DNA from: Periplaneta americana | Lineage: Eukaryota; Arthropoda; Insecta; Blattodea; Blattidae | Assembly (NCBI RefSeq): GCF_040183065.1 | Contig: NW_027185502.1 | Location: 2,655,501-2,719,500, forward strand | Reading direction: 5' to 3' | DNA length: 64,000 nt | In this document: positions 1-26,642 of the stretch, in pieces | How positions within the stretch are numbered: the stretch's first letter is position 1 | Layout of the letters: every line of letters begins with the position of its first letter | Notes under the pieces: generated by a model | What the model saw: the letters and a program-made list of their open reading frames with translations, nothing else | What the model was told of the DNA's origin: nothing | Databases searched by the model: none | Made by a program: the position numbers and the translations under genes

Positions 1-785
1 TAAGTTTCAATAGTCTTTCACTTTATTTTTAACTCACTTACTCTAATGGCACAATGACGCATTTCACCGACACTTTAGCGCACATTTCACTGACACTCTG
101 TAACACATTTCACTGACACTATAGAACACATTTCATTGACGCTATAAATTATCACTGATCGGAACTATTCACTGCACTGTAAAACCCTAACTTCACTGAC
201 TCACCTCGCTTCACTGATACAACAGTTCAAATAAGTCAAATAATTACACCCTTATGCATACTGTACTTATAAACAGAACTACATTTAAACTAAACTTTTC
301 TAGTCTAAGACCCTCTTACACGCCATTTTTAGATAATTTAGAATTCAAACCAAGGAAGTAACTCGTCAGGCTAAATAAATACATGTCACCTTAAAATATT
401 AAATGTTAAATGTCGCCTTAATTTTAATATGCACTTTATACACAACTTTTTAAATTATTCTTGAATCTCCTTAAGCAAGGACAGCCCTCAAAGACCGCTG
501 CAGGTAGGTCATTCCAATCATTTATAGTTCTATTTAAAAATGAGAATTTACCTACATCCGTTTTCTGTTTCCTACATTTGATTTTAAAATCAGGATCGTT
601 CCTACCATAGTACGTTGGCTTTTCTAACAGAGCGGTTATGTCTACCCATGCTTTTGACCTAGATGTGCTCTATACAATGATGTTATTCTAGTTTTCCTAC
701 ATCTGTTTTCCAATGTTTCCCATTTAGGTTCTTTCATCGTATCGTTTCCATCTTCTCTTTTCCCTTTAACAAATTTAGCTGCCCT

Positions 786-1996
786 TTACTGGATTCTTTC
801 TAAGGAATTTATCTGATATATTCTATAGGAATCCCAACATGTAGTTCCGTATTCCATTAACGGTCGCACTAACGTTAGATATGCTATTTCCCTCGATTTG
901 GGGCTAGCCTTTCTCAAGATTCTCATAATAAAGTGAAGTGCCCTCCATGCTTTACCCGTAACATTATCAACATGCTCTCCCCAAGAAAGTTTGAAGTTTA
1001 AATACACTCCTAGGTATTTATAACATTGTACTTGCGGAATTACAACACCACTGAATTCGTAATTAAGACTAGTTTCCTCTCGGGTTTTACAATATGTTAT
1101 ATAGATTTACTTTTAGAACCATTTATTTTCATCCTATGCATTAACGCCCAGTTATAAATTTTATTCAAGTCTGTTTGAATAGCATCTACATCTGAATTAT
1201 TTCTAATCTTTCTATAGATAATGCAGTCATCTGCAAATAGCCTCACATTTGATGTAATATTCTGGCATAGGTCATTTACGTATATTATAAAGAGTAATGG
1301 ACCCAGAACGCTGCCCTGTGGCACCCCTGAACTTATATTTCCAATTTCCGATATTTCATGACCAACTCTAACTCTCTGGGGTCTACCTTTTAAGAATTCT
1401 TGGATCCATAGCACCATTCTTTTATCTATTCCTGGCCTACTTAAGTTATCTATTAATATGTCATGTGGCACCAAATCAAATGCTTTCGAAAAATCAATCA
1501 CAACTGCATCGATTCTTCCGCCTCTATCTACCTCTTCAGCTAGATCCTGAACCAGCGACGTAATTTGACTATCACATGAGAAGCTTTCCCTAAAACCATG
1601 CTGGCGGTTGTAAAACCAGTGTTTCGCATTAAGAACATGACGAATATAATCCGATATCAAATGCTCCATGACTTTACATACGACAGATGTAAGGCTAATC
1701 GGTCTGTAGTTTCCGACATCTAATTTATTTCCACCTTTATGTATGGGTACCACTATAGCTGATTTCCAGTCACATGGAATAGCTGCATTGTTTATGGAAA
1801 CATGAAATATACGCATTAAGTATGGAATTATGGCCTCGGAACCTAATTTAAGAATCTCTGTAGCAATATTATCTGGTCCTCTAGACTTCTGACATTTTAA
1901 TTTCGTTAGTCTCTGTCTAACCCCTTTGGAAGTTATTTTGAATGTCGAATTTGGTTCACATTTACGGTCTGTGACACAACCAATCCTATCAGCGGG
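786..1996 (-). pseudogene. LINE-A copy 1 reverse transcriptase part of ORF2
   Basis: This part copies RNA into DNA during target-primed reverse transcription. Visible RT motifs on the minus strand are FRPIS-like NYRPISLTSVV, DFSKAFDLVPH, SSGVPQGSVLGPLLF and the catalytic FADD. The frame is open from the poly-Asn tract to about 1097. There a two-base TA duplication, absent from copy 2, breaks it, and the frame resumes at 1007-786. A TAA stop at 786-788 falls where related proteins continue (LERIQ then RAAKFV), and the same stop is present in copy 2. Past the stop, frame fragments continue toward about 470, with a recognisable tail motif (INDWNDLPAAV) typical of the C-terminus of this LINE group. 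Confidence 0.85.
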
Positions 1997-2054
<58 letters not shown>

Positions 2055-2073
2055 TATTATTATTATTATTATT
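1997..2073. repeat. (ATT)n microsatellite inside LINE-A ORF2
   Basis: About 25 ATT units with one imperfect unit (ATATT) that breaks the triplet phase. On the coding (minus) strand it reads AAT, encoding asparagine, and lies between the endonuclease linker (ending ISVFNNN) and the RT N-terminus (NNNPADRIG). The same tract occurs at the equivalent place in copy 2. Confidence 0.95.
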
Positions 2074-3240
2074 GAAAACCGAAATGAAATAGGAATTTAA
2101 TAAGTCGGCCTTTTCTTTGTCATCAGTTATACTTTCTCCGTTTTGATTTCGTAAAAGCACTACTCCTTCATTTTTTCCTTTTCTCCTGCGTACATAATTA
2201 TAAAACTGTCTCCAATTGTTACTGTCATCTTCTTTTAAAATGGTTTTTAGAAAATTTTCCTGAGCTATCCTTTTTTCACACTCAAGTTTCTTAATTAATT
2301 CGACATATTTTTTCCAATGCTCATGGCTTTGTTTACGTTTACTAAATGCGCGCCTTGTCTTTTTCTTTAAGTAGCGAATGTAATTAGTGTAATATTCAGG
2401 GTCCGGATTTTTCTTAATTATATTAGAAGATACATATTTTACTAATGCCTCGAAAATTATACTCTTAAATTTATGCCATACATTTTCCATATTTCCTTCA
2501 GTCCTTAGAAAGTCATCATGCTTTTGTCGTAGAAACGTTTGTAATTCATCGACATCGGTTTTGTTGAAGGTCCAGACAGACAGTGGACTTGACCTCGGAT
2601 TTACAGTGTTTTCCCAGAAGATTTCTAATAACACGCTATTGTGGTCACTTATTTTATGAAGACTTTCAGAGTTGACAAAGAGAGAGACAGGTCTTAATAG
2701 GTAAACATCTAAGAGGGCATTGTCACGCGTCGGACCATTTACTACCTGCGTGAAATCTTTACGCCAGATCAATTCATTAATAAGGGTCTGTGCATCTGAA
2801 TTCGTACCTGAAATCACGTTCCAGTTAGTTTTCGGGAGGTTTAGATCCCCAGCAATTACTACGTTTCGGTCTTCTGATACTGTATTAAGATATTCATTTA
2901 GTTTGTGCAAAGTTAAATTGTTTAATTCACTGGGTGGTCTGTAACATGCTATTACATCTAAGGTTTCCCGCCCATTTCTTATCTGAACATTCAATATTTC
3001 AACTTCCTCATGTATCCACAGAAGATTGCTACGTATTTCTATCTTAGTACAAACGAAAACTCCCCTCCCTTTTCACTCCTACCTTTTCTGAAGACTCTAT
3101 AATCCGACCTAAAAATTTCCGAGTCATTTTTGTATTCCCTAAGCCATGATTCCGTCCCAATTATTTCATCTGGATTATAAACACCGACCAAGTTCAAAAA
3201 CGGAATAAGTTTATTTCTAATACTTCGGCAATTATCCTGC
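2074..3240 (-). pseudogene. LINE-A copy 1 endonuclease and linker of ORF2
   Basis: This is an EEP-type (APE-like) endonuclease that nicks target DNA. On the minus strand it begins near 3240 with LLQDNCRSIRNK, then PDEIIGTESWL, then after a break IACYRPPS, VIAGDLNLPKTNW and KISDHNSVLLE, which are the expected endonuclease motifs in order. It continues into a basic linker (RYLKKKTRRAFSKRKQ) that leads to the poly-Asn tract. A one-base frameshift lies around 3057-3077 (SEKGG/GVFVCTK) and an identical one is present in copy 2 around 17341-17361. Long open frame 2994-1997 otherwise. Confidence 0.85.
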
Positions 3241-3262
3241 AGAAGTCTTAGTAGGCCTGTCC

Positions 3263-3529
3263 TTACTTGAAAATTCTGAATCTCCGTTGCACCTCGCCGT
3301 CACTGCTGGTCTCCGCCGACCGCTGATGGCTCTTCGATCGCACCGCCCACTGGTAGTCCCTCGACTCCTCCCACCACTGGTAGACTTTCACCCACACTGA
3401 CCACCGGTAATCCCTCCCCCCGCCGTCAGCTGATGGTCCATCCGTCCCGCTGCCCGCTGTTGGGTCCACGATCCCGCCGCACCAAGTTGTAAATACCAGC
3501 GTGGAGAGGAAGCCCAGGACTGCAGCCAC
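3263..3529 (-). pseudogene. LINE-A copy 1 leader ORF, GC-rich, repetitive
   Basis: A GC-rich stretch, unlike its AT-rich surroundings, that starts MAAVLGFLSTLVFTT and could be the N-terminus of ORF2 or a separate small ORF. The homologous stretch in copy 2 stays in a frame with repeats of GLPVV / SLPVV / GLPVG, whereas copy 1 has slipped frame. I recognise no domain. The hydrophobic start resembles a signal peptide, but in a LINE this is probably coincidental. Confidence 0.5.
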
Positions 3530-3550
3530 CCTCCGTTTTAGGTGGATTCC

Positions 3551-6500
3551 GTAGTAATAATAATAGTAGTAGTAGTAATAGTAACAGTAGCGTGATATAC
3601 TAGTATTAGTAGTAGCTGTACTTACAATAATATTAATAGTAATACTATTAATAGTAACGGAAGTAGTATCAGTGATGTGGTAGTATTAGAATTAGCAGTA
3701 CTAGTAGTAGTAATAATAGTAATAGTAGCAGTAGCAGTGCTGTAGTAGTATTAGTAGTAGTAGTGATAATAGTAGTAGTACTAATAGTAACAGTAGCAGT
3801 AGCAGTGGTGTAGTAGCATTAGTAGTAGCAGTACTAGTAGTAGTAATAATAGTAGTAGTACTAATAGTAACAATAGCAGTAACAGTGGTGTAGTAGTATT
3901 AGTAGTAGCAGTACTAGTAGTAGTGATAATAGTAGTAGTACTAATAGTATCAGTAGCAGTAGCAGTGGTTTTGTAGTATTAGTAGTAGCATTACTAGTAG
4001 TAGTGATAATAGTAGTAGTACTAATAGTGAAAGTAGCAGTAGCAGTGGTGTAGTACTATTAGTAGTAGTAATAGTAGTAGTAGTAGTGATAATAGTAGTA
4101 GTACTAATAGTAACAGTAGCAGTAGCAGTGGTGTAGTAGTACTAATAGTAACACTAGCAGTAGCTGTGATGTAGTAGTATTAGTAGTAGCAGTACCAGTA
4201 GTAGTAATAATTGTAGTAGTACTAATAGTAACAGTAGCAGCAGCAGTGGTGTAGTAGTATTATTAGTAGCAGTAATAGTAGTAGTAACAGTAGCAGTAGC
4301 AGTGATGTAGTAGTATTAGTAGTAGCAGTATTAGTAGTAGTAATAATAGTAGTAGTACTAATAGTAACAGTAGTAGTAGCAGTGGTGTAGTAGTATTAGT
4401 GATAGCAGTACTAGTAGTAGAGTAAATAGTAGTAGTACTAATAGTAACAGTAGTAATAGCAGTACTAGTAGTAGTGATAATAGTAGCAGTACTAATAGTA
4501 ACAGTAGCAGTAGCAGTGGGGTTGTAGTATTAGAAGTAGCAGTACTAATATTAATAACATAAGTAGTAGTAATATTAGTAAAAAATAGTTGTGATAATAG
4601 TTGTAGCAGTGGTGTAATAGCATTAGTAGTAGCAGTACTAGTAGTAGTAATAATAGTAGTAGTATTAATGGGAACATTAGCAGTAGCAGTGTTGTAGTAG
4701 TATTACTAGAAGCAGTACTTGTAGTAGTAATGATATTAGTAGTACTATTTGTAACAGTAGTAGTAGTGGTGTAGTAGTATTGGTATTATCAGTAATAGTA
4801 GTTGTATTAATAGTAGTAGTAGTAATAGTATCAGTAACAGTAGCAGTGGTGTACTAGTATTAGTAGTAGCAATGGTAGTAGTAGTAATAATAGTAGTAGT
4901 ACTAATAGTAACAATAGTAGTAGCAGTAATATTAGTAGTATTAGTAGTAGCAGTAGCAGTGGTGTAGCAGTAGTAGTAGTAGTAGTAGGAGCAACAATGA
5001 CACTAGTAGTATTAATAGTAACAAGAGGAGTAGCAGTGGTGTAGTGGTAATAGTAGTAGCAGTACTAGTAGTAGTAATAATAGTAGTAGTAATAATAGTA
5101 GTAGCACTAATAGTAACAGTAATAGTAGCAGTGGTGTAGTAGCATTAGTAGTAGCAGTACTAGTAATAATAATAGTAATAGTACTATTATTAATAGCGGT
5201 AGTAGCCGTGGTGTAGTAGCATTAGTAGTAGCAGTAATAGTAATAGTAATAATAGTAGCATTACTAATAGTAACAGTAGCAGTGTTGTAGTAGTAGTGAT
5301 AATAGTATTATTACTAATAATAAGAGTAGCAGTAGCAGTGGTGTAGTAATAATTGTAGTAGCAGTACTAGTAGTAATATTAATAATAGTGGTACTAATAG
5401 TAACAGTAGCAGTGGTGTAGTAGTATTAGATGTAGTAGTTTTGTATTAAACACAATTGTAGAATTATTAATAGTAACATTAGCAGTAGCACTAGTGTAGC
5501 TTTACTAGTAGTATTGATAATTGTAGTAGTACTAAGAGTAACAGTAGTAGTATCAGTGGTTTAGTAGATTTAGTAGTAGCAATACTAGTAGTAGTAACAG
5601 TAGCAGTAGCAGTGATGTAGTAGTATTACTAATAGCTGTATTTGTAGTAGTAATAATAATAGTAGTATTAATAATAACAGTAGTAGTAGCAGTTGTGTAG
5701 TAGTATTAGTAGTAGCAGTAATAGTAGTTGTTATAATAGTACTAGTACTAATAGTAACAGTAGCAGTAGCAGTGGTGTAGTAGTATTTGTAGTAGTAGTG
5801 ATAGTAGTAGTACTGACAGTAAGAGTAGCAGTAGCAGTTTTGTACTACTATTAGTAGTAGCAGTACTAGTAGTATTAATAATAGTAGTAGTACTAATAGT
5901 AAGAGTAGCAGCAGTGGTGTAATAGTATTATTAGTAGCAGAACTAGTTGTAGTAACAGCAGCAGTAGCAGTGATTTAGTATTAGTAGTAGCATTAATAAT
6001 ATTAGTAATAATAGTAGTAGTACTAATTGTAACAGTAGCAGTGGTGTTGTAGTATTAGCAGTAGCAGTACTAGTATTAGTAATAATAATAGTAGTAATAT
6101 TAGTAAATTAGTTGTAGCGGTTGTGTAGTAGCATTAGTAGTAGCAGTAACAGTAGTATTAATAATAGTAGTACTACTAATAGTAACATTAGCAGTAGCAG
6201 TGGTGTAGTAGTATTACTAGTCGCAGTACTAGTAGTAGTAATAATATTAGTAGTAATAATTGTAACATTAGCTGTAGTAGTGGTGTAGTAGTATTAGTAG
6301 TAGCAGTACTAGTAGTTGTAATAATAGTAGTAGTAGTAATATCAGAAACTGTAGCAGTGGTGTAGTAGTATTATTAGAGAAATACCAGTAGTACTAATAA
6401 CAGTAGTAGTACTAAGAGTAACAGTAGTAGTAGCAGTAGTACTAGTAGTATTAGTAGTAGCCTTAGCAGTGGTGTAGCAGTAGTATTTGCAGCAGTACTA

Positions 6501-9500
6501 GTAGAAGCAATGATACTAGTAGCACTAATAGTAACAATAGCAGTAGCAATGGGGGTAGTAGTAATAGTAGTAGCAGTAATAGTAGTAGTAATAATAGTAC
6601 TGGTACTAATACTAACATTAGTAGTAGCAGTGCTGTAGTAGAATTAGTAGTAACTGTACTAGTATTAGGTATAATAGTAGTATTACTAATAGTACCAGCA
6701 GCAGTAGCAGTGGTGTTGTAGTATTAGTAGTAGTAGAACTAGTAGTAGTAATAATATTAATAGTACTATTATTAACAGCAGTAGTAGCAATGGTGTAGTA
6801 GCATTAGTAGTAGCAGTAATATTAGTAGTAATAATACTAGGAAGATTAATAGTTAAAGTAGCAGTGGTGTAGTAGTATTATTAGTAGCATTACTAGTAGT
6901 AGTAATAATAGTATTAGTAAATAACAGTAACAGTAGCATTAGCAGTGATATATTACTATTAGTATTAGCAGCACTAGTAGTAGTAATAATAGTAGTAGGA
7001 CTAATAGTAACATTAGTAGTAGTAGTGGTGCAGTAGTATGAATAGTATCAGTAATAGTAGTAGTACTAATAGTAACAGTAGCAGTAGCAGTAGTGTTGTA
7101 GTATTAGTAGTAGTGATAATAGTAGTAGTACTAATAATAACAGTAGTAGTAGCAGTGGAGTATTAGTATTACTAGTGGCAGTACTAGTAATAGTAATAAT
7201 AATAGTAATACTAATGGTAACATTAGCAATAGAAGTAGCAGTCGTTTAGTAGTATTAGTAGTAGCAGTACTATTTTTAATAATAGTAGTAGTAGTAATAG
7301 TAAGAGTAGTAGTAGTAGTAGCAGTGCTGTAGTAGTACTAGTAGTAGCAGTAATATTAGTAGTAATAATAGTAGTAGTAATATTAGTAACAGTAGCAGTA
7401 GCAGTGGTGTAGGAATATTAGTAGTAGCAGTACTAGTAGTACTAAAAGTAGTAGTAGTACCAATAGTAACAGTAGTAGAAGCAGTGATGAAGTAGTATTA
7501 GTAGTATTAGTGCTAGTAATAGTAATAATACTAGTGGTATTAATAGCAACAATAGCAATAGCAGTGGTGTAGTAGTATTAGTAGTAGCAGTGCTAGTATT
7601 AGTGATGATATTATTGGTATTAATAGTAACAGTAGTAGTAGGAGTTGTGAAGTATTATTATTAGTGGCATTACTAGAATAGTGATAATAGTAGTAGTACT
7701 ATTAGTAACAGTAGCAGTGGCAGTGGTGTAGCGGTATTAGTAGAAACAGTACTAGTATTAATGCTAATAGTAGTAGTACTGATAGTAACAGTAGCAGTAG
7801 CAGTGGTGTAGTGTTATTAGTAGTAGCAGTACTAATATTAGTGAAAATTGTAGTAGTATTAATCGTAACAGGAGCAGTAGCAGTGGTGTAGTTGTATTAG
7901 TAGTAGCAGTACTAGTAGTAGTAATAATAGTAGTAGTACTAATAGTAACCGTAGTAGTAGCAGTGGTGTAGTAGTATTTGCAGTAGCATTGCCAGTAGAA
8001 TTAATATTAGTAGTAGTAATAATAGTAACATTAACAGTAGCAGTGGTGTAGTAGTGTTAGTAATAGCAGTACTAGTATTTGTAATAATAGTAGATGTATT
8101 AACAATAAGAGTAGCAGTAGCAGATGTGTAGCAGTACTAGTAGTAGTGATAATATTTGTAGTACTAATAGTAACAGTAGCAGTAGCAGTGATAATAATAG
8201 TAGTACCAATAGTAACAGTAACAGTAGCATTGGTGTAGAAGTAATAGTAGTAGAAGTACTAATAGTAGTAATATTAGTAGTAGTACTTAATAGTATCAGT
8301 AGCAGTAGCAGTGGTGTAGTAGTATTAGTAGTAATATTATTAGTACTAGTAATAATTGTATTAGTACTAATAGTAACAGTAGCAATAGCAGTGGTATAGT
8401 AGTATTAGTAGTAGCAGTACTAGTACTAGTTTTAATAGTAGCGCTACTTGTAGTAACAGTAGCAGAAAGCAGTGGTGTAGTTGTATAAGTAGTAGCAGTA
8501 CTAGTAGTAGTAATAATAGTAATAGTACTAATTGTAACCGTAGTAGGAGCAGTGGTGTAGTAGTATTTGCAGTAGCATTACCAGTAGAATTAATATTAGT
8601 AGTAGTAATAATAGTAACATTAGCAGTAGCAGTCGTGTAGTAGTATTAGTAGTAGCAGTACTAGTATTAGTAATAATGTAGAAGTATTAATAGTAACAGT
8701 AGCAGTAGCAGAAGTGTAGCAGTACTAGTATTAGTGTTAATAGTAGTAGTACTATTAGTAACAGTAGCAGTAGCTGTGGTGTAGTAATGTTAGTAGTTGG
8801 AGTACTAGTAGTAGTAATAATTCTAGTAGTGCTAATAGTAACAATAGTAGTAGCAGTGGTGTAGTAGCTTTAATTGTAGCATTACTATTAATAATGATAA
8901 TAGTAGTAGTACTAATAGTAACAGTAGCAGTAGCAGTGGTGTAGTAGTATTAGTAGTAGCGGAACTACTAGTAGTGATAATAGGAGTAGTACTGATAGTA
9001 ACAGTAGCAATAGCAGTGGTGTAGTAGTAGTGATCGTAGTAGTAGTAGTAGTAATAGTAACATCATCAGTAGCAGTACTAGTAGTAGTGATAATAGTAGT
9101 AGTATTAATCGTAACAGTAGCAGTAGCGGTGGTTTTGTTGTATAATTAGTAGCAGTACTAGTAGTAGTAATAATAGTATTAGTAGTAATTGTAACAGTAG
9201 TAGTAGCAGTGTTGTAGTAGTATTAGTAGTAGCAGTACTGGTAGTAGTAATATTAGTTGTAGTACTATTAGGAACAGTACCAGTAGTTGTGTTGTAGTAG
9301 TATTAGTAGTAGCAGTACTGGTAGTAGTAATAATAGAAGAAGTATTAATAGTAACAATAGCAGTATCAGATGTGTATCAGTACTAGTGATAGTGATAATA
9401 GCAGTAGTACTAAAAGTAACAGTAGCATTAGCAGTGGTTCAGTATTATTAGAAGTAGCAGTACTAGTAGTTGTAATAATTGCAAGTAGTATTAATAGTAA

Positions 9501-10068
9501 CAGTAGTAGTAGTAGGAGTAGTAGTAGTAGCAGTAGCAGTGGTGTAGCAGTAGTAGTAGTAGTAGCAGTACTAGTAGTAGTTATAATAGTAGTAGTACTT
9601 CTAGTGACATTAGCAGTAGCGGTTTTGTAGTAGTATTAGTACTGGCATTGCTAGTAGTAGTAATAAGAGTAGTATTACTAATAGTAACAGTAGTAGTAGC
9701 AGTAGTAGTAGTAGTAGTAGTAGTAGCTGTAGCACTTTTGTAGCAGTAGTAGCAGTAGCAGTACTAGTAGTTGTATTAATTGCAGTGGTACTAATAGGAA
9801 CAGTAGCAGTAGCAGTGGTTAGTAGTATTAGGAGTAGCAGTACTAGTAGTAGTCATAATAGTAGTTGTACTAGTAGTAACAGTAACAGAAGCACTGGTGA
9901 AGTAGTATTAGTAGTAGCAGTGTTATTAGTAATAACATGGTAAGAGTAACAATAGCAGTGGTGTAGTAATATTAGTAGTAGCAGTACTAGTAGTAGTAAA
10001 AATAGTAGTAGTACTAATAGTAACAGTAACAGTTGCAGTGTTGTAGTATTATTAGTGGTAGCAGTACT
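3551..10068. repeat. 80-bp minisatellite array 1 (triplet-like TAG/TAA/CAG units)
   Basis: About 6.5 kb of diverged tandem units of 80 bp. A typical unit runs from TGTAGTAGTATTAGTAGTAG through CAGTACTAGTAGTAG, TAATAATAGTAGTAGTACT, AATAGTAACAGTAGCAGT to AGCAGTGG. The unit is almost entirely made of GTA/TAG-type triplets, but 80 is not divisible by 3, so triplet phase slips every unit. The first 200 bp next to LINE-A are nearly identical to the start of array 2. No genuine gene is seen inside; open frames here are low-complexity Ser/Val or Leu runs. Confidence 0.95.
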
Positions 10069-10140
10069 GTGTATGTATGTATGTATGTATGTATGTGTGT
10101 ATGTATGTATGTATGTATATATGTATGGATGTATGTATTT
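10069..10140. repeat. (TATG)n tract, likely 3' tail of LINE-A copy 2
   Basis: About 70 bp of TATG units with TGTG and TATA variants, between the end of array 1 and the 3' non-coding part of LINE-A copy 2. On the LINE's strand it reads (CATA)n, a plausible 3' tail repeat. Confidence 0.8.
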
Positions 10141-11158: not shown

Positions 11159-12367
11159 TTACTGGATTCTTTCTAAGGAATTTATCTGATATATTCTATA
11201 GGGATCCCAACATGTAGTTCCGTATTCCATTAACGGTCGCACTAACGTTAGATATGCTATTTCCCTTGATTTGGGGCTAGCCTTTCTCAAGATTCTCATA
11301 ATAAAGTGAAGTGCCCTCCATGCTTTACCCGTAACATTATCAACATGCTCTCCCCAAGAAAGTTTGGAGTTTAAATACACTCCTAGGTATTTATAACATT
11401 GTACTTGCGGAATTACAACACCACTGAATTCGTAATTAAGACTAGTTTCCTCTCGGGTTTTACAATATGTTATAGATTTACTTTTAGAACCATTTATTTT
11501 CATCCTATGCATTAACGCCCAGTTATAAATTTTATTCAAGTCTGTTTGAATAGCATCTACATCTGAATTATTTCTAATTTTTCTATAGATAATGCAGTCA
11601 TCTGCAAATAGCCTCATATTTGATGTAATATTCTGGCATAGGTCATTTACGTATATTATAAAGAGTAATGGACCCAGAACGCTGCCCTGTGGCACCCCTG
11701 AACTTATATTTCCAATTTCCGATATTTCATGACCTACTCTAACTCTCTGGGTTGTACCTTTTAAGAATTCTTGGATCCATAGCACCACTCTTTTATCTAT
11801 TCCTAGCCTACTTAAGTTATCTATTAATATCTCATGTGGCACCAAATCAAATGCTTTCGAAAAATCAATCACAACTGCATCGATTCTTCCGCCTCTATCT
11901 ACCTCTTCAGCTAGATCCTGAACCAGCGACGTAATTTGACTATCACATGAGAAGCCTTCCCTAAAATCATGCTGGCGGTTGTAAAACCAGTGTTTCGCAT
12001 TAAGAACATGACGAATATAATCCGATATCAAATGCTCCATGACTTTACATACGACAGATGTAAGGCTAATCGGTCTGTAGTTTCCGACATCTAATTTATT
12101 TCCGCCTTTATGTATGGGTACCACTATAGCTGATTTCCAGTCACATGGAATAGCTGCATTGTTTATGGAAACATGAAATATACGCATTAAGTATGGAATT
12201 ATGGCCTCGGAACCTAATTTAAGAATCTCTGTAGCAATACTATCTGGTCCTCTAGACTTCCGACTTTTTAATTTCGTTAGTCTCTGTCTAACCCCTTTGG
12301 AAGTTATTTTGAATGTCGAATTTGGTTCATATTCACGGTCTGTGACACAACCAATCCTATCAGCGGG
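11159..12367 (-). pseudogene. LINE-A copy 2 reverse transcriptase part of ORF2
   Basis: Open minus-strand frame from the (AAT)n tract at 12433 to the TAA at 11159-11161, without the TA duplication that breaks copy 1. Motifs seen: NYRPISLTSVVCKVMEHLI, DAVVIDFSKAFDLVPHE, SSGVPQGSVLGPLLF, FADD, MKINGSKSKS, CYKYLGVYLNSKLSW and LTLVRPLMEYGTTCWDP. The catalytic aspartates are present. The region beyond the stop (to about 10850) still matches the expected C-terminus, so the stop removes roughly the last 110 residues. Confidence 0.85.

Positions 12368-12433
<66 letters not shown>
12368..12433. repeat. (ATT)22 microsatellite, left half of the LINE-B target
   Basis: Twenty-two perfect ATT units forming the RT-proximal half of the poly-Asn tract of LINE-A copy 2. 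LINE-B starts at the next base. Confidence 0.95.
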
Positions 12434-12434
<1 letters not shown>

Positions 12435-13160
12435 GGTATTAAGGGCCCTAGGAAGTCTTACGCTGAACTTGCAAAGGAAAATTCTATCCTAAATGTTCAA
12501 ATGGCTGAAATGTTATCAAAGGGGTGCTGCCCCCATAAATCATCTCATAGTATTTCTTCTGTGGGTCAGTCTAATGACCCCATTAAGAAATCATATAGCA
12601 AGGTAGTGTCTGTGAACAAAGCTGCTGACAACTTGCATTCTTGTAATTCTGATGCGTCAGCAACAAGGAAGTCTGTGTCAACAACTCCTCCTGCTAATGA
12701 TAGACATAACAATATTGAACTAAATCAGGCCAATGCTTCAACTTCTGCCAACGTATCTGATGGTTTTCAATTAGTTACTCGCAAAAAATATAAAAAAAGA
12801 GAACCTAAAGTTGGAACATTGGCCATGAGTAGCATTGAAATGGCCCCTGAGAGAATTAAAACTAAATCTCTATTTGTTTCGAGATTTAGTTCCAAAGTCA
12901 ACACAAACAGTATAGAGGACTCCCTGAAGAATCAACTTCAGCTAAGATCTCTTGCTGTAACTAAACTAAAAACCAAATATCTATCATATTCTTCCTTTCA
13001 CATCACTGTTGATGTGAGGGATTTCGATTCCATTAACAAACCTGAAGTTTGGCCTGCTGGTTGCCTAATTGCACCATTTTATGGTAAATTAAAGCCTGAG
13101 CAGCACTTTGCGCATTCTGCTAATTCGAACTCTGTTGATTCTCAGGGAAATGCCTCTTAG
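12434..13160 (+). CDS. LINE-B ORF1 protein (5'-truncated)
   Basis: About 240 codons open to a TAG at 13158-13160. The N-terminal part has a heptad-like stretch (SYAELAKENSILNVQMAEML) suggesting a short coiled coil, then a Ser/Asn-rich linker, then a conserved block with KTKSLFVSRFSSKVN, VTKLKTKYLSYSSFHI and PEVWPAGCLIAPFYGKL. That block matches the C-terminal RNA-binding-like region of ORF1 proteins in CR1/Jockey-type LINEs, a role in RNA packaging inferred from the family. No start codon lies inside the element; the frame runs back into the flanking (ATT)n as poly-Leu, which is not part of the protein. Confidence 0.75.
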
Positions 13161-13187
13161 TCTTAGTCTTGCTCGCTCTCATTTTCA

Positions 13188-15969
13188 ATGTTCAGTTCTA
13201 TTAATCATCTCGAGATTTTCTACCAAAATGTTCGTGGACTTAACACTAAAGTTGATGAAATTTTTCAGAATATAGTGAGTAATAATGATCTCATTATCTG
13301 TCTCACTGAAACATGGTTATCTGAGTCAGTTATTAATTCTGATTTATTTCCAAATAACTATACTGTGTTTCGTGCAGATAGACTGTTTGCAGACACTAAC
13401 AAAAAAAGAGGTGGTGGTGTCCTAACAGCGATTAGCAACCAGTTACCTTTTACTAAAAGACGTTTTGACTTAGAAATTATTAGTGAATGCGTTTGGGTTG
13501 AACTTAGAATGACTGATGGTTTTAATCTGTTATTAGGTAACCATTATTTCTCTCCTGATACAGATCATATTCACTTAAAATCTTATCTTAATTTTCTTGA
13601 AAAAAATCTCGACACTCATAATTTTAGAATAGTAATCCTTGGTAATTTTAATACTCCTGGTATGGACTGGACAACTGGTTCTAATCTTAATGATACTCAT
13701 TATTACTCTAAAATTAAGGCTAAGGATTTATATTCCTCGTCCCGCCTTCTTGGATTAATTCAAATTAACTCTACCGTTGCGAGTAAAAAGCTTCTTGATT
13801 TGGTTTTTACTAATGATAAAAACAGTACAGTTAAACTTGCCGATCACTCTCTAGTTTTAGAGGATACTTATCATCCATCTATCTCTATTTATATTGAAGT
13901 AAAATTATCGTTACCGGAACACTCTCTAATCAGTTCTTATTTAAATTATTCTCAAGGTGATTATCTGAATCTTTATTCTATTCTATACAATTATTATTGG
14001 ACTAGCATATATCAGACTACTGATGTAAACACTGCTGTAAATTTCTTGTCTCAAATTATAAACAATGCTATATCCCTTTGTGTCCCTGTCACCTTTGTTA
14101 AAAAATCGCACTATCCTAAATGGTTTTCAAACGATTTACGTCAGCTTATTAAGAAAAAAAAATAAAGCTCATAAAAATTACAAAAAATATAAAACTGATC
14201 ATCAGTATCAAATTTTTTCTAATTTTAGAAAACAAGTCAAAGCCATGATTAAATCTGATAAATTCAAATGGTTACAATCAATTGATGATAACCTAAAGCA
14301 CGAACCAAATAAATTTTGGAAATATGTAGAAACTTTTCGAAAAACAAATAGTAATCCCACAGAACTAATAATAAATGGCGTTCACATCACAGATGAAAAA
14401 GAAATTGCAAATGCATTTGCTTGTCAATTTAAATCTGTTCAACAAAATTGTAACTCTAATTTCATTACTTATGATTCTAATATCACTGACTGTTTGTCCC
14501 TGCCTAATATTACATTCGATGATGTAAATAAAGCTATTAAAAAACTAAAGCCTAATAAATGTAAAGGTACTGATAGCATTCCTAATTTTATAATTAAGGG
14601 TTGTTCTAATATTCTCTTGCCTGTTTTAACTTTTTTATTCAATCTTAGCTTAAAAACAGGAATTTACCCGTCACTTTGGAAGGAAGCATCCATTATTCCA
14701 GTTTTCAAAAATGGTAATAAAAATAGTGTTACTAATTATAGACCCATTTCTATCCTAAACAATTTTTCTAAAATTTTTGAAAAAATTACTCACAAACACA
14801 TTTCATTTTATGTCAAAAATAAGATCAATTCGGCCCAACATGGATTTACAAGAGGGAAATCTACAACTACTAATTTAGTTTCCTATCTTAATCTCATAAT
14901 GCCTATAGTTGAAAATCAAGGTCAAATTGACTCAATTTATTTTGATTTTAGCAAAGCATTTGATGTTGTTCCTCACAAAATTTTATTAAATAAATTAAGT
15001 AATTTTGGTCTCTCCACTAACTACGTTAATTGGTTTGAAAATTATTTAACAGATAGACAGTCTTGTGTTCGACTAGGTAATTCTCTCTCGGTTCCATTTA
15101 ATAGTTTATGCGGTGTTCCTCAAGGGTCTACATTGGGACCTCTCTTATTTTTATTATTTATAAATTATATAAGAAAAAGAATAAGTTCTAGCTGCCTTTT
15201 ATTTGCGGATGATCTCAAAATCTTTCGCAAAATTAATAGTTTGGTTGATTGTCAAATTCTTCAAAATGACATTAATTCAATTTCACAATGGTCTGTTGAA
15301 AATGGAATGAAAATTAATCAATCCAAAACTTCTGTTATTTCCTTTTCACGGAAAACTATCTCCCTAAAATTTAACTATTCTCTCAGTAATATCGTAATTA
15401 CTAGGACAGATTGTATTAGAGATCTTGGTGTCCTACTTGATTCAAAATTATATTTCCATGATCATGTGCAATATATTTATACCCATTCGTTAAGAATGCT
15501 TGGTCTAATTAGGTCTATAACTTATTCTTTTTCCACTCCTATGTGTTTATTAATTTTATACTATACGTTGGTTAGATCCAAGCTTGAATATGCATCTGTT
15601 GTATGGAACTCCATTACTTCCACTGACTCGGCTAAATTGGAGAATATTCAAAGAAAATTTATTTCCTTGTATTCTTATAGATTTTTACCAAATTCCGATT
15701 ATAACTATGAGATTAAATGCAATTATTTCAATTGCGGTTGTCTGTTCACCAGACGTCAGGATCTTGATTATTTATTTTTTTGCAAAGTCATTAAGGGTGA
15801 TATTGATTGTGAATCTTTCATAAGCAATATCAGTCTTCGTATTCCTGCTAATGGTTTAAGATTTCATAAATTGTTTTATAATAAGAATTCTAAATCTCTC
15901 TCTCCGGTCTGCAGATGCATTAAATATGCTAATTTGCATGGATTCAACTTGGATCCATTTAATGTGTAG
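13188..15969 (+). pseudogene. LINE-B ORF2 (endonuclease + reverse transcriptase), one frameshift
   Basis: Starts ATG 13188, 27 bp after ORF1 ends. Endonuclease motifs: FYQNVRGLNTK, LTETWL, GGGVLTAI, then VILGNFNTPGMDW, where the usual GDFN aspartate is Asn, then EDTYHPSI. RT motifs: NYRPISILNNFSKIFEKI, IYFDFSKAFDVVPHK, CGVPQGSTLGPLLF, LLFADDLKIFRKI, and a C-terminal Cys-rich stretch near CNYFNCGCLFTRRQD. A run of nine A at 14153-14161 causes a single frameshift; one A fewer would keep the frame, so a sequencing slip is possible. Stop TAG at 15967-15969. Total length, about 930 codons, is normal for the group. Confidence 0.85.
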
Positions 15970-16290
15970 TATATCTTTGAGTTTTTAACTCACTGATCTT
16001 ATTTTAATAATTATTTGTCCATTTTATTTCTTGCATTTGGTCAATTGATTAATGTAGACTATTCCATTATTTCAATTATCTCATTGTACTAATTTTGTAA
16101 TTTTATAATTATTATTTGATCATTGATTATTTAGACCATTATATTGTTTGTATTTCATCTCATTGCCATTTTCTATCATTCATTCTCATCATCATTTGTT
16201 GTTTTGTTCTGTTTTGTATCGTGCAAAACTGTAATTGGCCTTGTGCTGTTGTTTTTGCACGTTAATATTCTAAATAAATAAATAAATAAA
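15970..16290 (+). other. LINE-B 3' UTR and (TAAA)n tail
   Basis: AT-rich 3' untranslated region after the ORF2 stop, ending in CTAAATAAATAAATAAATAA and then directly in the (ATT)n of LINE-A. Confidence 0.75.

Positions 16291-16363
<73 letters not shown>
16291..16363. repeat. (ATT)24 microsatellite, right half of the LINE-B target
   Basis: About 24 ATT units joining LINE-B's tail to the endonuclease-linker part of LINE-A copy 2. On the minus strand it encodes Asn in frame with the upstream linker (ISVFNNN). Confidence 0.95.
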
Positions 16364-16364
<1 letters not shown>

Positions 16365-17560
16365 AAACCGAAATGAAATAGGAATTTAATAAGTCGGCCT
16401 TTTCTTTGTCATCAGTTATACTTTCTCCGTTTTGATTTCGTAAAAGCACTACTCCTTCATTTTTTCCTTTTCTCCTGCGTACATAATTATAAAACTGTCT
16501 CCAATTGTTACTGTCATCTTTTAAAATGGTTTTTAGAAAATTTTCCTGAGCTATCCTTTTTTCACACTCAAGTTGCTTAATTAATTCGACATATTTTTCC
16601 CAATGCTCATGGCTTCGTTTACGTTTGCTAAATGCGCGCCTTGTCTTTTTCTTTAAGTAGCGAATGTAATTAGTGTAATATTCAGGGTCCGGATTTTTCT
16701 TAATTATATTAGAAGATACATATTTTACTAATGCCTCGAAAATTATACTCTTAAATTTATGCCATACATTTTCCATATTTCCTTCAGTCCTTAGAAAGTC
16801 ATCATGCTTTTGTCGTAGAAACGTTTGTAATTCATCGACATCGGTTTTGTTGAAGGTCCAGACAGACAGTGGACTTGACCTCGGATTTACAGTGTTTTCC
16901 CAGAAGATTTCTAATAAGACGCTATTGTGGTCACTTATTTTATGAAGACTTTCAGAGTTGACAAAGAGAGAGACAGGTCTTAATAGGTAAACATCTAAGA
17001 GGGCATTGTCACGCGTCGGACCATTTACTACCTGCGTGAAATCTTTACGCCAGATCAATTCATTAACAAGGGTCTGTGCATCTGAATTCGTACCTGAAAT
17101 CACGTTCCAGTTAATTTTCGGGAGTTTTAGATCCCCAGCAATTACTACGTTTCGGTCTTCTGATACTGTATTAAGATATTCATTTAGTTTGTGCAAAGTT
17201 AAATTGTTTAATTCACTGGGTGGTCTGTAACATGCTATTACATCTAAGGTTTCCCGCCCATTTCTTATCTGAACATTCAATATTTCAACTTCCTCATGTA
17301 TCCACAGAAGGTTGCTACTTATTTCTATCTTAGTACAAACGAAAACTCCCCTCCCTTTTCACTCCTACCTTTTCTGAAGACTCTATAATCCGACCTAAAA
17401 ATTTCCCAGTCATTTTTGTATTCCCTAAGCCATGATTCCGTCCCAATTATTACATCTGGATTATAAACACCGACCAAGTTCAAAAACGGAATAAGTTTAT
17501 TTCTAATACTTCGGCAATTATCCTGCAGAAGTCTTAGTAGGCCTGTCCTTACTTGAAAAT
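16364..17560 (-). pseudogene. LINE-A copy 2 endonuclease and linker of ORF2
   Basis: Minus-strand frame open from 17280 to the poly-Asn tract, with IACYRPPS, VIAGDLKLPKINW, KISDHNSVLLE and the basic RYLKKKTRRAFSKRKRS linker. The N-terminal endonuclease block (LLQDNCRSIRNK, GTESWL) lies upstream in another frame because of the same one-base slip seen in copy 1. Compared with copy 1 the linker has one codon less (ILKDDSNN versus ILKEDDSNN). Confidence 0.85.
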
Positions 17561-17585
17561 TCTGAATCTCCGTTGCACCTCGCCG

Positions 17586-17819
17586 TCACTGCTGGTCTCC
17601 GCCGACCGCTGATGGATCTTCGATCGCACCGCCCACTGGTAGTCCCTCGACCCCTCCGACCACTGGTAGACTTTCACCCACGCTGACCACCGGTAATCCC
17701 TCGCCCCCGCCGTCAGCTGATGGTCCATCGGTCCCGCTGCCCGCTGTTGGGTCCACGATCCCGCCGCCCCAAGTTGTAGTAAATACCAGCGTGAAGAGGA
17801 AGCCCAGGACTGCAGCCAC
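17586..17819 (-). pseudogene. LINE-A copy 2 leader ORF, GC-rich, with LPVV repeats
   Basis: Homologue of the leader at 3263-3529. Here the frame MAAVLGFLFTLVFTT continues into a Gly/Val-rich repeat (EGLPVVSVGESLPVVGGVEG then LPVGGAIEDPS) and stops before the endonuclease block. It is unrecognised; its GC content contrasts with the rest of the LINE. Confidence 0.45.
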
Positions 17820-17840
17820 CCTCCGATTTAGGTGGATTCC

Positions 17841-20800
17841 GTAGTAATAATAATATTAATAGTAGTAATAGTAACAGTAGCGTGGTGTACTAGTATTAGT
17901 AGTAGCTATACTCGCAATAATATTAATAGTAATACTATTAATAGTAACAGAAGTAGTATCAGTGATGTGGTAGTATTAGAATTAGCAGTACTAGTAGTAG
18001 TAATAATAGTAATAGTAGCAGTAGCAGTGCTGTAGTAGTATTAGTAGTAGTAGTGATAATAGTAGTAGTACTAATAGTAAGAGTAGCAGTAGCAGTGGTG
18101 TAGTAGTATTAGTAGTAGCAGTACTAGTAGTAGTGATAATAGTAGTAATACTAATAGTAACAATAGCAGTAACAGTGGTGTAGTAGTATTAGTAGTAGCA
18201 GTACTAGTAGTAATGATAATAGTAGTAGTACTAATAGTAACAACAGCAGTAACCGTGGTGTAGTAGTATTATTAGTAGCAGTACTAGTAGCAGTGATAAT
18301 AGTAGTAGTACTAATAGTAAGAGTAGTAATAGCAGTGGTGTTGTAGAATAAGTACTAGCATTACTAGTAGTAGTGATAATAGTAGTAGAACTAATAGTAA
18401 AAGTAGCAGTAGCAGTGGTGTTGTAGTATTAGTAGTAGCAGTACTAGTAGTAGTAATAATAGTAGTAGTACTATTAGTGACAGTAGTAGTAGCAGTGGTG
18501 TTGTAATATTAGTAGTAGCAGTACTAGTAGTAGTGATAATAGTAGTAGTACTTGAAGCAAGTAAAGCGGTCGGTTTGGAAGTAAATCCCGAAAAGACAAA
18601 GTATATGATTATGTCTCGTGACCAGAATATTGTACGAAATGGAAATATAAAAATTGGAGATTTATCCTTCTAAGAGGTGGAAAAATTCAAATATCTTGGA
18701 GCAAGAGTAACAAATATAAATAGCACTCGGGAGGAAATTAAACGCAGAATAAAAATGGGAATTGCGTGTTATTATTCGGTTGAGAAGTTTTATCATCTAG
18801 TCTCCTGTCAAAAAATCTGAAAGTCAGAATTTATAAAACAGTTATATTACCGGTTGTTTTGTATGGTTGTGAAACTTGGACTCTCACTCTGAGAGGGGAA
18901 CATAGGTTAAGGGTGTTTGAGAATAAGGTGCTTAGGAAAATATTTGGGGCTAGACGGGATGAAGTTACAGGAGAATGGAGAAAGTTACACAACACAGAAC
19001 TACACTCATTGTATTCTTCACCTAACATAATTAGGAACTTAAAATCCAGACGTTTGAGATGGGCAGGGAATGTAGCACGTATGGGCGAATCCAGAAGTGC
19101 ATATAGAATGTTACTTGGGAGACCGGAGGGAAAAAGACCATTAGGAAGGCCGAGACGTAGATGGGAGGATAATATTAAAATTGATTTGCGGTGGTGGGGT
19201 GTGATGATAGAGACTGGATTAATCTTGCACAGAATAGGGACCGATGGCTGGCTTATGTGAGGGCGGCAATTAACCATCGGGTTCCTTAAAAGCCATTTGT
19301 AAGTAAGTTGTAAGTAAGTAATATTAGTAACTGTAGTAGTAGCAGTGGTATAATAGCATTAGTAGTAGCAGTACTAATAGTAGTAATAATAGTAGGAGTA
19401 CTAATAGTAACACTAGCAGTAGCAGTGGTGCAGTAATATTAGTAGTAGCAGTACTAGTAGCAGTTATAATAGGAGTAGTACTTAATAGTAACAGTAGCAG
19501 TAGCAGTGATTTAGTAGTATTAGTAGTAGCAGTACTAGTAGTAGTAATAATAGTAGTAGTAATAATAGTAACAGTAGTAGTGGCAGTTGCCTAGTAGCAG
19601 TAATAGTTGCAGTACTAGTAGTAGTGATAATAGTAGTAGTACTAATAGTAACAAAATAGCAGTAGGAGTGGTGTAGTAGTATTAGTAGTAGTAGTGATAA
19701 TAGTAGTACTACTAATAGTAACAGTAGCAGTAGCAGTAATGTAGTAGTATTAGTAGTAATAGTACTAGTAATAATAATAATAGTAGTAGTACTAATAATA
19801 ACAGTAGTAGTAGCAGTGGTGTATTAGTACTAGTAGCAGCAGTACTAGTAGTAGTAATAATAGTAGAAGTACTAATAGTAACAGTAGCAGTAGCAGTGGT
19901 GTAGCAGTCTTAGTAGTATCAGTACTAGTAGTAGCAATAATAGTAGTAGGAATACTAATAGTAACAGTAGCAGTAGCAGTGGTGTAGTAGTATTAGTAGT
20001 AAAAGTGCTAGTAGTGGTAATAATAGTAGCAGTATTAAGAGCAAAAGTAGCAGTAGCAGTGCTGTAGTAGTATTAGCAGTAGCAGTGCTAGTAGTAGTGA
20101 TAATATTATTAGTATTAATATTAACATTAGTAGTAGCAGTGGTGTAGTAATATTCGTAGTAGCATTATTAGTAGTAGTAGTAATAGTAGTAGTACTAATA
20201 GTAACCGTAATAGTAGCAGAGGTATAGTAGTATTAATTGTAGCAGAACTAGTAATAGTGGTAATACTAGTAGTACTAATAGTAACATTAGCAGTAGCAGT
20301 GGTGTAGTAGTATTAACAGTAGTACTGATAATAGTAGTAATGCAAATAGTAACAGTAGCAGTAGCAGTTTTGTAGTTGTATTAGTAGTAGCAGTATGAGT
20401 AGTAGTAATTATAGTAGCATTAATAGCAGTAACAGTAGCAGTAGCAGTGGTGTAGTAGTATTAGTAGTAGTAGTGCTAGTAGTAGTGATATTATTAGTAG
20501 TATTAATAGTAAAAGTAGTAGTAGCAGCGGTGTAGTAGTATTAGTAGAAGCAGTACTAGTATTAGTAATAATAGTAGTAGTACTAATAGAAACAGTAGCA
20601 GTAGCAGTGGCGTAGTAGTATTAGTAGTAGTAGTAATAATAGGACCAGTATTAGTAGCAGTAATAATAATAGTAGTAGCAGCAGTAGAAGAGGTGTGTAA
20701 GTAGTAGTAGCAGCAGTAATAGTAGTAATAATAGTAGTAGTAATAATATTAACAGTACCAGTAGCAGTGTGGTAGTATTATTAGTAGTAGCAGTACTGTT

Positions 20801-22208
20801 AGTAGTAATAATAGTAGTACTACTAATAGTAACAGTAGTAATAGCAGTAATAATAGTAGCAGTGGCACTGGTGTAGCAGCAGTAGCAGCAGTACTAGTAG
20901 TAGTAATAATAGTAATAGTACTAATAGTATCAGTAGGTGTAGCAGTGGTGTAGTGGTATTAGAAGTGGCAGTATTGTAATAGCAATAATGGTAGTAGTAC
21001 TAACAGTTACAGTATCAGTGGTGTAATATTATTTGTAGTAGCAGTACTAGTAGTAGTACTAATAGTAACAGTAGCAGTGGCAGTGGTGTAATAGTATTAG
21101 CAGTACTAGTAGTGGTAATAATAGTAGCAGTAGTGGTAGTAGCAGTAGGAGTAGTAATAGCATTAACAGTGGCGTAGCAGTATTAGTAGCAGTAGTAGTA
21201 GTATTAGTAATTGCATTAGCATTGGTGTAGCAGTAGTAGTAGTAATAATAGCAGTGGTACTAATATGAACAGTAGCAGTGGCGGTGATATAGTAGGATTA
21301 GTAGTAGCAATACTAGTAGTAGTAATAATAGTATAATTACTAATAGTAACAGTAACAGTAGCGTGGTAATATTAGTAGTAGCAGTACTATTAGTAGTAAT
21401 ATTATTGTCATTAATAATGGAAACAGTAGTAATAGCAGTAGTAGTAGTATTAGTATTAGTAGGAATGGTGTTGCGGTAGTAGTAGTAGCAGTACTAGTAT
21501 TATTAATAGTAGTAGTAGTACTTATAGTGACAGTAGCAGTAGCAGTGGTGTAGTAGTATTTGTAGTAGGATTACTAGTATTAGTAATAATAGTAGTAGTA
21601 CTAATAGTAGCAGTAGCAGTAGCATTGGTAGTAGTATTAGTAGTAGCAGTACTAGTAGTAGTGATAATAGTATTTGTACTAATAGTAACAGTAGCTGTAG
21701 CAGTGGTGTAGTAGTATTAGTTGAAGCGGTATTATTAGTAATACTATTTGTTACAATAGCAGTAGCAGTGGTGTAGTAGTATTAGTAGTAGTTATAATAG
21801 TAGTAGTGCTAATAGTAACAGTAGCAGTGGTGTAGTAGTTTTAGTAGTAGCGTTACTAGTAGTAGTGATAATAGTAATAGTACTAATAGTAACAGTAGCA
21901 GTAGCAGTGGTGTAGTAGTATTAGTTGTAGCGGTAATATTAGTAGTACTAATAGTTACAATAACAGTAGCAGTGGTGTAGTAGTATTAGTTGTAGTGATA
22001 ATAGTAGTAGTACTAACAGTAGCATTAGCAGTGGTGTAGTAGTGTTATTAGTAGCAGTACTAGTAGTAGAGAGAATAGTAATAGAACTAATAGTAACAGT
22101 AGTGTTAGTAGCAGTAGCAGTGTTGTAGCAGTAGTAGTTGCATTACCAGTAGTAGTAATAATAGTGATTGTAGCAGTTATAGTAGTAGTAGTAGCAGTAG
22201 CAGTGGCG
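17841..22208. repeat. 80-bp minisatellite array 2
   Basis: About 3.6 kb of the same 80-bp unit plus a LINE-C insertion (18552-19320). Exact 80-bp spacing can be read from consecutive TAGTAGTATTAGTAGTAGCA starts at 18101 and 18181. It ends at 22208, where unique sequence begins. Coding-looking frames inside are triplet-repeat artefacts. Confidence 0.95.
18552..19320 (+). mobile_element. LINE family C, copy 1 (5'-truncated RT C-terminus), in array 2
   Basis: A plus-strand LINE tail inserted in the minisatellite. It starts in the RT palm-to-thumb region (EASKAVGLEVNPEKTKYMI), passes the IKIGDLSF block and ends with the C-terminal YGCETWTLTLRGEHRLRVFE, RRLRWAGNVARM and GRPRRRWEDNIKID. It has at least one in-frame stop (after GDLSF) and frame slips. 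The 3' end AAAAGCCATTTG followed by (TAAG)n is shared by four copies in this window. The short-repeat tail and the domain pattern suggest an RTE-like or related clade; this is not certain. Confidence 0.85.
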
Positions 22209-23061: not shown

Positions 23062-23127
<66 letters not shown>

Positions 23128-23800: not shown

Positions 23801-24455
23801 CTTTTAAAATTGTTTTGTGATATAATATTCTTCAGCTAAATTTATCAATCCATTATCTAAACATCGTTTCAAAATTGTGAATGTTTCAAACATGTGACTT
23901 AATTCGTGTCCTGTGTCTATTAAATGTGCAGGACATGTAGATTTTCTTCTATTGTGTTTCAAATCAGCTAAGTGTTCACCATATCTGATTTCAAAATTTC
24001 TTTTAGTTTGGCCAATAATATTTCTGTTTGCAAGTGTGACATTCTAAGCTGTAAATACATTATTATGTAATTTATTAGGTGTACGAAGCCCATTATTTGA
24101 AATATTGTTCAGTTTCTTTTCGGGTTTGTGTGCTATTGATATATATTCTTTCTTGAAAAATTAGCTAATTTATTTTATATATATTCTTTGTAGATAATGC
24201 AAAATGTTTTCTTTTAGCATTGTTATTAATATCATTAACATTTTTAATGTACTTACGTTTTTTTGTTTTACACTTCTCTCTCTTTTATGTATTAATTCCT
24301 TAATTAGGCTTCTATTGTAACCATTTTCGTTAAGTATTTGAATTATTTTATTGTATTCTTTGTTGTAGTTGTTCTTGCTTAAGGGCGTTTGTATTAATCT
24401 ATTAATAAAAAATTTGAAATTATTTACTTTTTGTGTGAATTTTTGTGTTCTGAAG

Positions 24456-26640: not shown

Positions 26641-26642
<2 letters not shown>

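Follow-up and report, generated by a model that had tools for sequence, protein, structure and literature searches.

A LINE duplicated within a minisatellite of Periplaneta americana, very probably after its death, and a nested LINE that appears to target (ATT)n

Long interspersed nuclear elements (LINEs) that insert into one kind of simple repeat, and transposable elements joined to the monomers of a tandem array, are the described situations closest to the stretch of Periplaneta americana DNA considered here. The stretch (the window in what follows) comprises 64,000 nucleotides, C21:2655501-2719500 of the assembly, and positions are counted within it, negative ones lying to its left. Among the LINEs of simple repeats, Dong belongs to the R4 clade and carries a restriction-like endonuclease. 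Its target is (TAA)n according to the accessible part of PMC2887409, that of Togen is (TG)n, and most target-specific LINE families belong to the early-branched, Tx1 and R1 groups (the latter two points from the accessible part of PMC4640811). As for tandem arrays, in the rye pSc200/pSc250 arrays transposable elements are joined directly to array monomers and have expanded with them, recombination being proposed there (accessible part of PMC4857426); the cockroach locus is alike in this joining and co-expansion, and differs in being one duplication, at one locus, of an insect minisatellite and a LINE. Within 1-22206 of the window and its left flank, a LINE here called LINE-A is present twice head to tail within an 80-bp GTA-derived minisatellite, and this macro-repeat is very probably the local duplication of one already dead, 5'-truncated LINE-A together with part of the minisatellite. 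A second LINE, LINE-B, is nested in one of the two copies and appears to be an (ATT)n-targeting element with an endonuclease of the apurinic/apyrimidinic (APE) type.

On the plus strand the order is array (left of the window), LINE-A1, array 1, LINE-A2, array 2, with LINE-A on the minus strand. Self-comparison pairs 83-2061 with 10451-12433 (97.6% identity) and 2003-4275 with 16291-18564 (95.2%), and Tandem Repeats Finder (TRF) calls a period of 80 at 3662-9921, 17992-18552, 19317-21067 and 19673-21459, enclosed by GTA-rich stretches at 3551-10066, 17841-18550 and 19333-22204. LINE-A1 starts about 275 bases left of the window edge with the array to its left as well, i.e. the minisatellite lies on the 3' side of both LINE-A copies. 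The pieces of the second open reading frame (ORF2) of both copies match Pfam Exo_endo_phos_2 (endonuclease) and RVT_1 (reverse transcriptase, RT); Rfam returned nothing at gathering scores on the window. The features, with the evidence used (UTR, untranslated region), are as follows.

1..3550, minus strand: LINE-A copy 1, 5'-truncated, 3' end about 275 bp left of the window (self-comparison, junctions)
786..788, minus strand: premature stop in ORF2 of LINE-A1 (array against dispersed copies)
3551..10068, no strand: array 1, the 80-bp GTA-derived minisatellite between the LINE-A copies (TRF, junctions, tile comparison)
10069..12367, minus strand: 3' part of LINE-A copy 2, with most of the RT and the 3' UTR; TACA-repeat tail at about 10069-10142 (self-comparison, Pfam)
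11159..11161, minus strand: premature stop in LINE-A2, the same as 786-788 (array against dispersed copies)
12368..12433, no strand: (ATT)22, the portion of the LINE-A2 polyasparagine-coding microsatellite to the left of the LINE-B insertion that splits it (TRF, empty-site comparison)
12434..16290, plus strand: LINE-B, APE endonuclease and RT, without the 5' part found in most other copies (Pfam, copy comparison)
16291..16363, no strand: (ATT)24, the portion of that microsatellite to the right of LINE-B (TRF, empty-site comparison)
16364..17840, minus strand: 5' part of LINE-A copy 2, with the endonuclease, breaking off within ORF1 (self-comparison, dispersed copies)
17841..18552, no strand: first part of array 2, its first 400 bp matching array 1 at 386/400 (self-comparison, tiles)
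18553..19306, plus strand: presumably RTE-like LINE fragment inserted in array 2 (self-comparison, comparison with C15 and C29)
19317..22206, no strand: second part of array 2 (TRF, self-comparison)

The fragment at 18553-19306, which we take to be RTE-like, has no Pfam match and is shared, at 99.1% identity each, with two other contigs, C15 and C29. A preliminary description of the window had LINE-A and the 80-bp array occurring twice head to tail with the same junction, which self-comparison, TRF and the identity of the 5' and 3' junctions bear out. The 10.4-kb unit proposed there stands only as a spacing: the 3' junctions of the pair are 10,343 bp apart in C21, and the distance varies among contigs from 8.7 to 11.3 kb (8,726 bp in C15, 11,329 bp in C29), the recognisable duplicated unit being about 4.5-5.6 kb.

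Both outer junctions of LINE-A are identical between the copies, as a segmental tandem duplication demands. The 5' junction, GGATTCC/GTAGTAATAAT, is found at 3550/3551 and 17840/17841, and the 3' junction, GTAGCAGTACT/(TGTA)n, at -275 and 10068, both copies ending in TACA repeats, beyond which the array sequence is the same. Pattern searches of the whole genome (3,231,669,367 bases, 91 contigs) with up to three mismatches allowed located the 5' junction at six places, all of them exact and two each on C15, C21 and C29, with no match of the reversed pattern. The 3' junction was matched at 22 places, of which six are exact and lie at the same loci as the 5' junctions, every pair having the copy-1 base (A) and the copy-2 base (G); among the remaining 16, all with three mismatches, 13 are one identical TAG/TATG compound repeat and three are variants, and the reversed-pattern control gave one forward and one reverse match. 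Since the exact junctions occur at six places only, two per contig, the arrangement of array and LINE-A is that of one locus and its relatives, and no feature of the family.

The two copies have their lesions in common too. The premature stop at 786-788 and 11159-11161 is present in 5/5 array copies covered (C29 copy 1 is not) and in 0/4 dispersed copies, which have tyrosine there, and the endonuclease frameshift, a G run shortened by one base, is present in 6/6 array copies and in none of the 20 dispersed copies that could be anchored (four could not). Both lesions had been reported in the preliminary description as common to the pair; they are confirmed, and found only in array copies. The reading favoured there, duplication of an already dead element, is supported by these lesions and by the rarity of the junctions.

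The time order of duplication and contig divergence was read from ungapped two-state sites in the LINE-A parts of five copies (C29 copy 1 left out). Copy 1 (C21, C15) is parted from copy 2 (C21, C15, C29) at 28 sites; 11 sites unite copy 2 of C15 and C29, and one site that of C21 and C29, all compatible with the split between copy 1 and copy 2, and the other two-state sites, apart from four that group by contig, are private to single copies. With 28 copy-type against four contig-type sites, the duplication therefore predates the split of C15, C21 and C29, and the LINE-A pair is not an assembly echo.

The same figures bear on the alternative that survives best, itself very improbable, according to which the assembly represents one locus twice. 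It may draw on the size of C21 (4.1 Mb) and C29 (0.59 Mb), both small and outside the chromosome-sized contigs, such as C15 with its 187 Mb, and on the likeness of their surroundings: the flank at 22240-26856 is 99.6% identical to C15:170401094-170405700 (4580/4598, three gaps), and 60000-61000, a dispersed repeat with many weaker matches, recurs at 97% on C15, C29 and C28. However, the copies are about 2% apart within a contig (in C21 the 5' part has 20 differing sites and the 3' part 38, together about 1.8%), and the differing sites are mostly shared with the same copy elsewhere. Furthermore, LINE-B is present only in copy 2 of C21, the RTE-like fragment only in array 2 of C21, C15 and C29, and the assembly, taken to be PAMFEO1_priV1, was built from HiFi reads (accessible part of PMC12774602). 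For the pair, an assembly duplication of one locus is thus contradicted.

Whether the three contigs themselves stand for distinct loci is a separate matter. C15 and C29 share the LINE-A pair and the RTE-like fragment with C21 and are without LINE-B in the stretches fetched, and window 22300-23050 is found at 99% on both. C29 LINE-A copy 1 is interrupted, its 3' junction being at 310725 and its 5' part starting from 316377; RTE-like pieces were seen inside it, at C29:313244-315747. C21 and C29 may represent other haplotypes of the C15 region, or additional copies of it. PAMFEO1_priV1 (3.23 Gb, 91 scaffolds, HiFi and Hi-C) is derived from one adult female, according to the accessible part of PMC12774602, and the three versions of the locus exceed the two haplotypes of one diploid animal.

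Duplication also predicts that host sequence outside LINE-A be common to the copies, and this was found on both sides. Next to the 5' break the arrays of the two copies agree at 386/400 positions, ungapped, and on the 3' side the pair of tiles closest to LINE-A agrees at 184/200 and 116/122 (the latter includes the LINE start), most 200-base tiles farther from the junctions reaching only 157-181/200 with many gaps; the likeness of the junction flanks is above the array background. In 160-bp tiles, array 1 at 3551-3870 is clearly nearest array 2, and array 0 (the array left of LINE-A1) has colinear counterparts of the array-1 tiles starting at 8991, 9151 and 9311, and of the one at 9791. The shared flank measures 0.4-0.7 kb on the 5' side; on the 3' side it measures 0.3 kb, and a second matching block extends as far as about 1.1 kb. 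When the flanks of each LINE-A copy were joined computationally, the array was near or in phase, shift 0 ranking first for C21_2, eighth for C21_1, first for C15_1 and third for C15_2 among 82 shifts.

By taking these observations together, the following course of events is proposed. The 80-bp minisatellite array would have come first, and one CR1-type LINE-A would have inserted into it by target-primed reverse transcription, with its 5' end cut within ORF1 and array on both sides. The insert would then have decayed, acquiring the premature stop and the one-base endonuclease frameshift, before a tandem duplication took in LINE-A and the nearest array repeats. Unequal exchange between the flanking array repeats would be the most likely cause, though it is unproven. 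The array between the copies would later have turned over, the RTE-like fragment would have landed in array 2, and the region would have diverged into the three sequences now seen on C15, C21 and C29; in C21, LINE-B would finally have landed in the ATT repeat inside LINE-A2.

Several observations weigh against this course of events. At the level of 160-bp tiles, neither array 0 nor array 2 offers a colinear match to the middle of array 1, from about 4 to 9 kb, the array-1 tiles 9471 and 9631, which lie between matching stretches, match array 0 no better than the array matches itself, and the tiles did not reveal continuous homology through the whole repeat unit. Unaltered unequal exchange predicts such continuous likeness, and later array turnover must therefore be assumed; the length of array 1 differs between C21 and C15. 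The phase analysis is not uniform either, shift 0 being only eighth of 82 for C21_1 and third for C15_2, with neighbouring shifts scoring nearly as high, and no target-site duplication is readable in so repetitive a target. Lastly, the four sites that group by contig (two uniting the C21 pair and two the C15 pair) run counter to the copy-wise pattern; small gene conversions or repeated mutation could explain them.

The remaining alternatives depend on how LINE-A and the array behave elsewhere in the genome. Thirty LINE-A 5' regions were fetched from the best 40 scored of 321 candidates: six are joined to the array (the pairs on C15, C21 and C29) and 24 are free of it. Twenty-two of these 24 dispersed copies extend beyond the break seen in the window, by enough in 20 to give a BLAST match, and two stop before it. 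A common 5' end, 954-971 bp beyond the break and with ORF1 in between, is shared by eight copies besides the reference copy L032, in which ORF1 is full-length (386 aa; L032:1728-2888, minus strand). The window copies are 5'-truncated, since the dispersed copies continue past their break into ORF1. As to the array, a 552-bp probe yielded at least 243 matches, with 26 candidates scored out of 3847. They include blocks on C6, C12, C14, C17 and C20, where none of the six 5' junctions is located.

That the array might be the 5' region of LINE-A itself (promoter or 5' UTR), carried along by retrotransposition, was suggested in the preliminary description, and is in keeping with both copies joining the array at the same base and with no ORF1 being visible in the window. 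This proposal can hardly be sustained against the 24 of 30 array-free 5' regions, the common 5' end of the longer copies, whose flanks are by eye unlike the GTA array, the presence of the 5' junction at six places only, and the array on the 3' side of both copies. The search of LINE-A 5' ends, which is the check put forward in the preliminary description, with similar arrays at other loci lacking the 5' junction, decides instead for local duplication.

Equally difficult to accept is a LINE-A that targets the array, another possibility raised previously, which would require two independent insertions at the same monomer position. Two copies do lie in one array; however, they have the same 5' truncation point, 3' junction, stop and frameshift and near-identical array at both ends, and dispersed copies are found in other flanks (four loci for the 3' side, 24 for the 5' side). 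The junction searches would miss arrays holding LINE-A with other break points. Finally, mobilisation of array and LINE-A as one RNA (5' transduction) with reinsertion beside the first copy would account for the array shared on the 5' side, and was rejected as extremely improbable because the array beside the 3' tail is shared too: after reinsertion the tail should be followed by new sequence.

Local duplication of a dead insert being preferred, it remains to describe the element that was duplicated. LINE-A appears to be a CR1-type LINE, with APE endonuclease and RT in ORF2 and an ORF1 of PHD and/or esterase type, which is lost in the window copies. In L032, ORF1 matches the PHD finger of Pfam above the cut-off (E 1e-6) and a GDSL-like esterase just below it (E 2.9e-7, 31.6 bits against a cut-off of 32.9). 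It also contains a GIELNPG stretch resembling what we take to be a 2A-type motif. The likeness to CR1-type LINEs with such an ORF1 thus extends to both ORFs; the PHD/esterase ORF1 is, however, common to CR1 and L2 and does not prove CR1 alone (PMC4120745, accessible part). In the same part of that source, the esterase-type ORF1 within the Jockey superfamily is found only in two vertebrate groups, and the accessible part of PMC3905857 reports esterases in several LINE clades, naming chordates, cnidarians and sponges as hosts, whereas the host of LINE-A is an insect. The TACA-repeat tail is found in three of four dispersed copies (L005, L006, L008), L007 having TA repeats instead, and the (ATT)n polyasparagine tract of ORF2 in L005 and L008, the two of the four whose tract neighbourhood was found; in L032 an asparagine run is visible in one frame. 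Between the array-joined copies and dispersed LINE-A the identity is no more than 88-91% at window 3073-3550, but about 97% in the 3' part.

LINE-B (12434-16290) is nested in this ATT repeat, i.e. its landing site is the (AAT)n polyasparagine tract of LINE-A2 ORF2. It occupies the site in one version of the locus, and the others keep the empty site: 44 bp (C15) and 83 bp (C29) of uninterrupted repeat separate the anchors that are 3997 bp apart in C21, a comparison that concerns one insertion. Its surroundings elsewhere were evaluated in 20 loci including the window (L046-L065), the best matches to its 5' part from the best 40 scored of 287 candidates. An ATT repeat, perfect or imperfect, borders the 5' end of every one of the 20. 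In 19 the repeat makes up at least half of the 60-bp 5' flank, and the twentieth (L054) has (ATT)7; the corresponding counts are 0/24 for LINE-A (mean 0.07, highest 0.48 in L028) and 11/5000 for random 60-mers from 22208-64000. Five copies are 5'-shorter by the rule of the script (L046, L047, L058, L060 and L061; break points hand-set, and L047 short of no more than a few bases), and these too lie directly against the repeat. The ATT repeat is therefore the target and not part of the element. On the 3' side, evaluated in a set of mostly different copies (L066-L085, the second to twenty-first of the best 40 of 2237 candidates), (ATT)4 or longer starts within 90 bases in 14/20, and the other six (L069, L071, L074, L077, L081 and L083) have by eye a shorter or imperfect ATT-rich sequence, weakest in L081. 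Thus, LINE-B displays the same repeat on the 5' side, truncated copies included, the same repeat on the 3' side, and an empty site consisting of the repeat, as a target-specific LINE should.

The proteins encoded by LINE-B set it apart from Dong, with which it shares the repeat, (TAA)n being (ATT)n on the other strand. ORF2 of LINE-B matches Exo_endo_phos, the APE type (E 1.3e-8 in the window, 1.8e-10 in L048), and not the restriction-like endonuclease that defines Dong-type (R4) elements. ORF1 is weakly PHD-like (E 0.0012) and has a weak match to the coiled-coil family Shugoshin_N (E 0.00034), both below the cut-off, and the RT is 37% identical to that of LINE-A over 400 positions. LINE-B resembles Dong and Togen in that its examined copies are located in a single kind of simple repeat. 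By taking into account the grouping of target-specific families in the accessible part of PMC4640811 and the link of PHD-type ORF1s to the CR1 and L2 lineages in that of PMC4120745, LINE-B would be an unusual targeter. On balance, it is rather probable that LINE-B is a young CR1-group LINE of the APE type that inserts almost only into (ATT)n, and that specificity for the repeat of the unrelated Dong arose twice, with different endonucleases, and here in a group that the accessible parts of the sources cited do not name among the target-specific LINEs. No description of the cockroach locus or of an ATT-targeting CR1 element was found in the accessible portions of the literature, which dealt with the assembly itself, the target specificity of LINEs, the ORF1 of CR1 elements and co-amplification of transposable elements with arrays.

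Further details of LINE-B deserve mention. The initial CGGT of the window copy is also that of the full-length 5' end, and the sequence then continues from a point about 640-660 bp inside the element (12434-12445), which reflects either an internal deletion or chance. In L048, L063 and L065, AAAT-type repeats like the tail of LINE-B itself lie directly upstream, and some copies may sit in the repeat left by an earlier insertion. LINE-A as a regular landing pad for LINE-B was considered and is not borne out: an exact genome pattern search, which misses 5'-truncated or diverged cases, found no full-length LINE-B inside the ATT tract of LINE-A elsewhere.

Other observations concern the flanks. 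The stretch 22300-23050 recurs at 82-95% on several chromosomes, and on C6, C17 and C20 a listed match of the array probe is found within about 0.4 to 3.5 kb of it, with order and orientation preserved; array and flank may therefore be part of an older repeated unit. In the left flank on C21 the orientation of the minisatellite reverses near -7370 (about -20000 to -7350 against -7399 onward), giving inverted arrays, a disposition that calls to mind a foldback element which we take to be the one named Tetris. The terminal inverted repeats of that element are composed of tandem repeats of 220 bp (Dias et al. 2014, cited from the accessible part of PMC5857280), and the cockroach minisatellite is likewise in inverted orientation, a likeness that is only a lead. 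By eye, the array left of LINE-A1 also contains a DNA-transposon-like insert with terminal inverted repeats at about -2150 to -1275 (L010), beside which a tRNA-like stretch, resembling a short interspersed nuclear element, spans about -2480 to -2176. On the right, 22150-64000 has 16 pairs of inverted repeats with arms of at most 186 nt, none of which bounds the region as a larger element would, and Pfam places other mobile-element gene pieces at 32562-34327, 40284-41243 and 42744-43412 (DDE_Tnp_1_7 in two pieces, DUF7869 and DDE_1).

The mechanism behind the macro-repeat is ordinary genome turnover. Its value is that of a clean example of a tandem array multiplying a dead transposon without transposition, and it is a reminder that copy number alone must not be taken as transposon activity. 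LINE-B matters more than the macro-repeat itself: as one assembly provides both an empty site and a large number of similar copies, the apparent (ATT)n preference of an APE-type LINE becomes directly testable.

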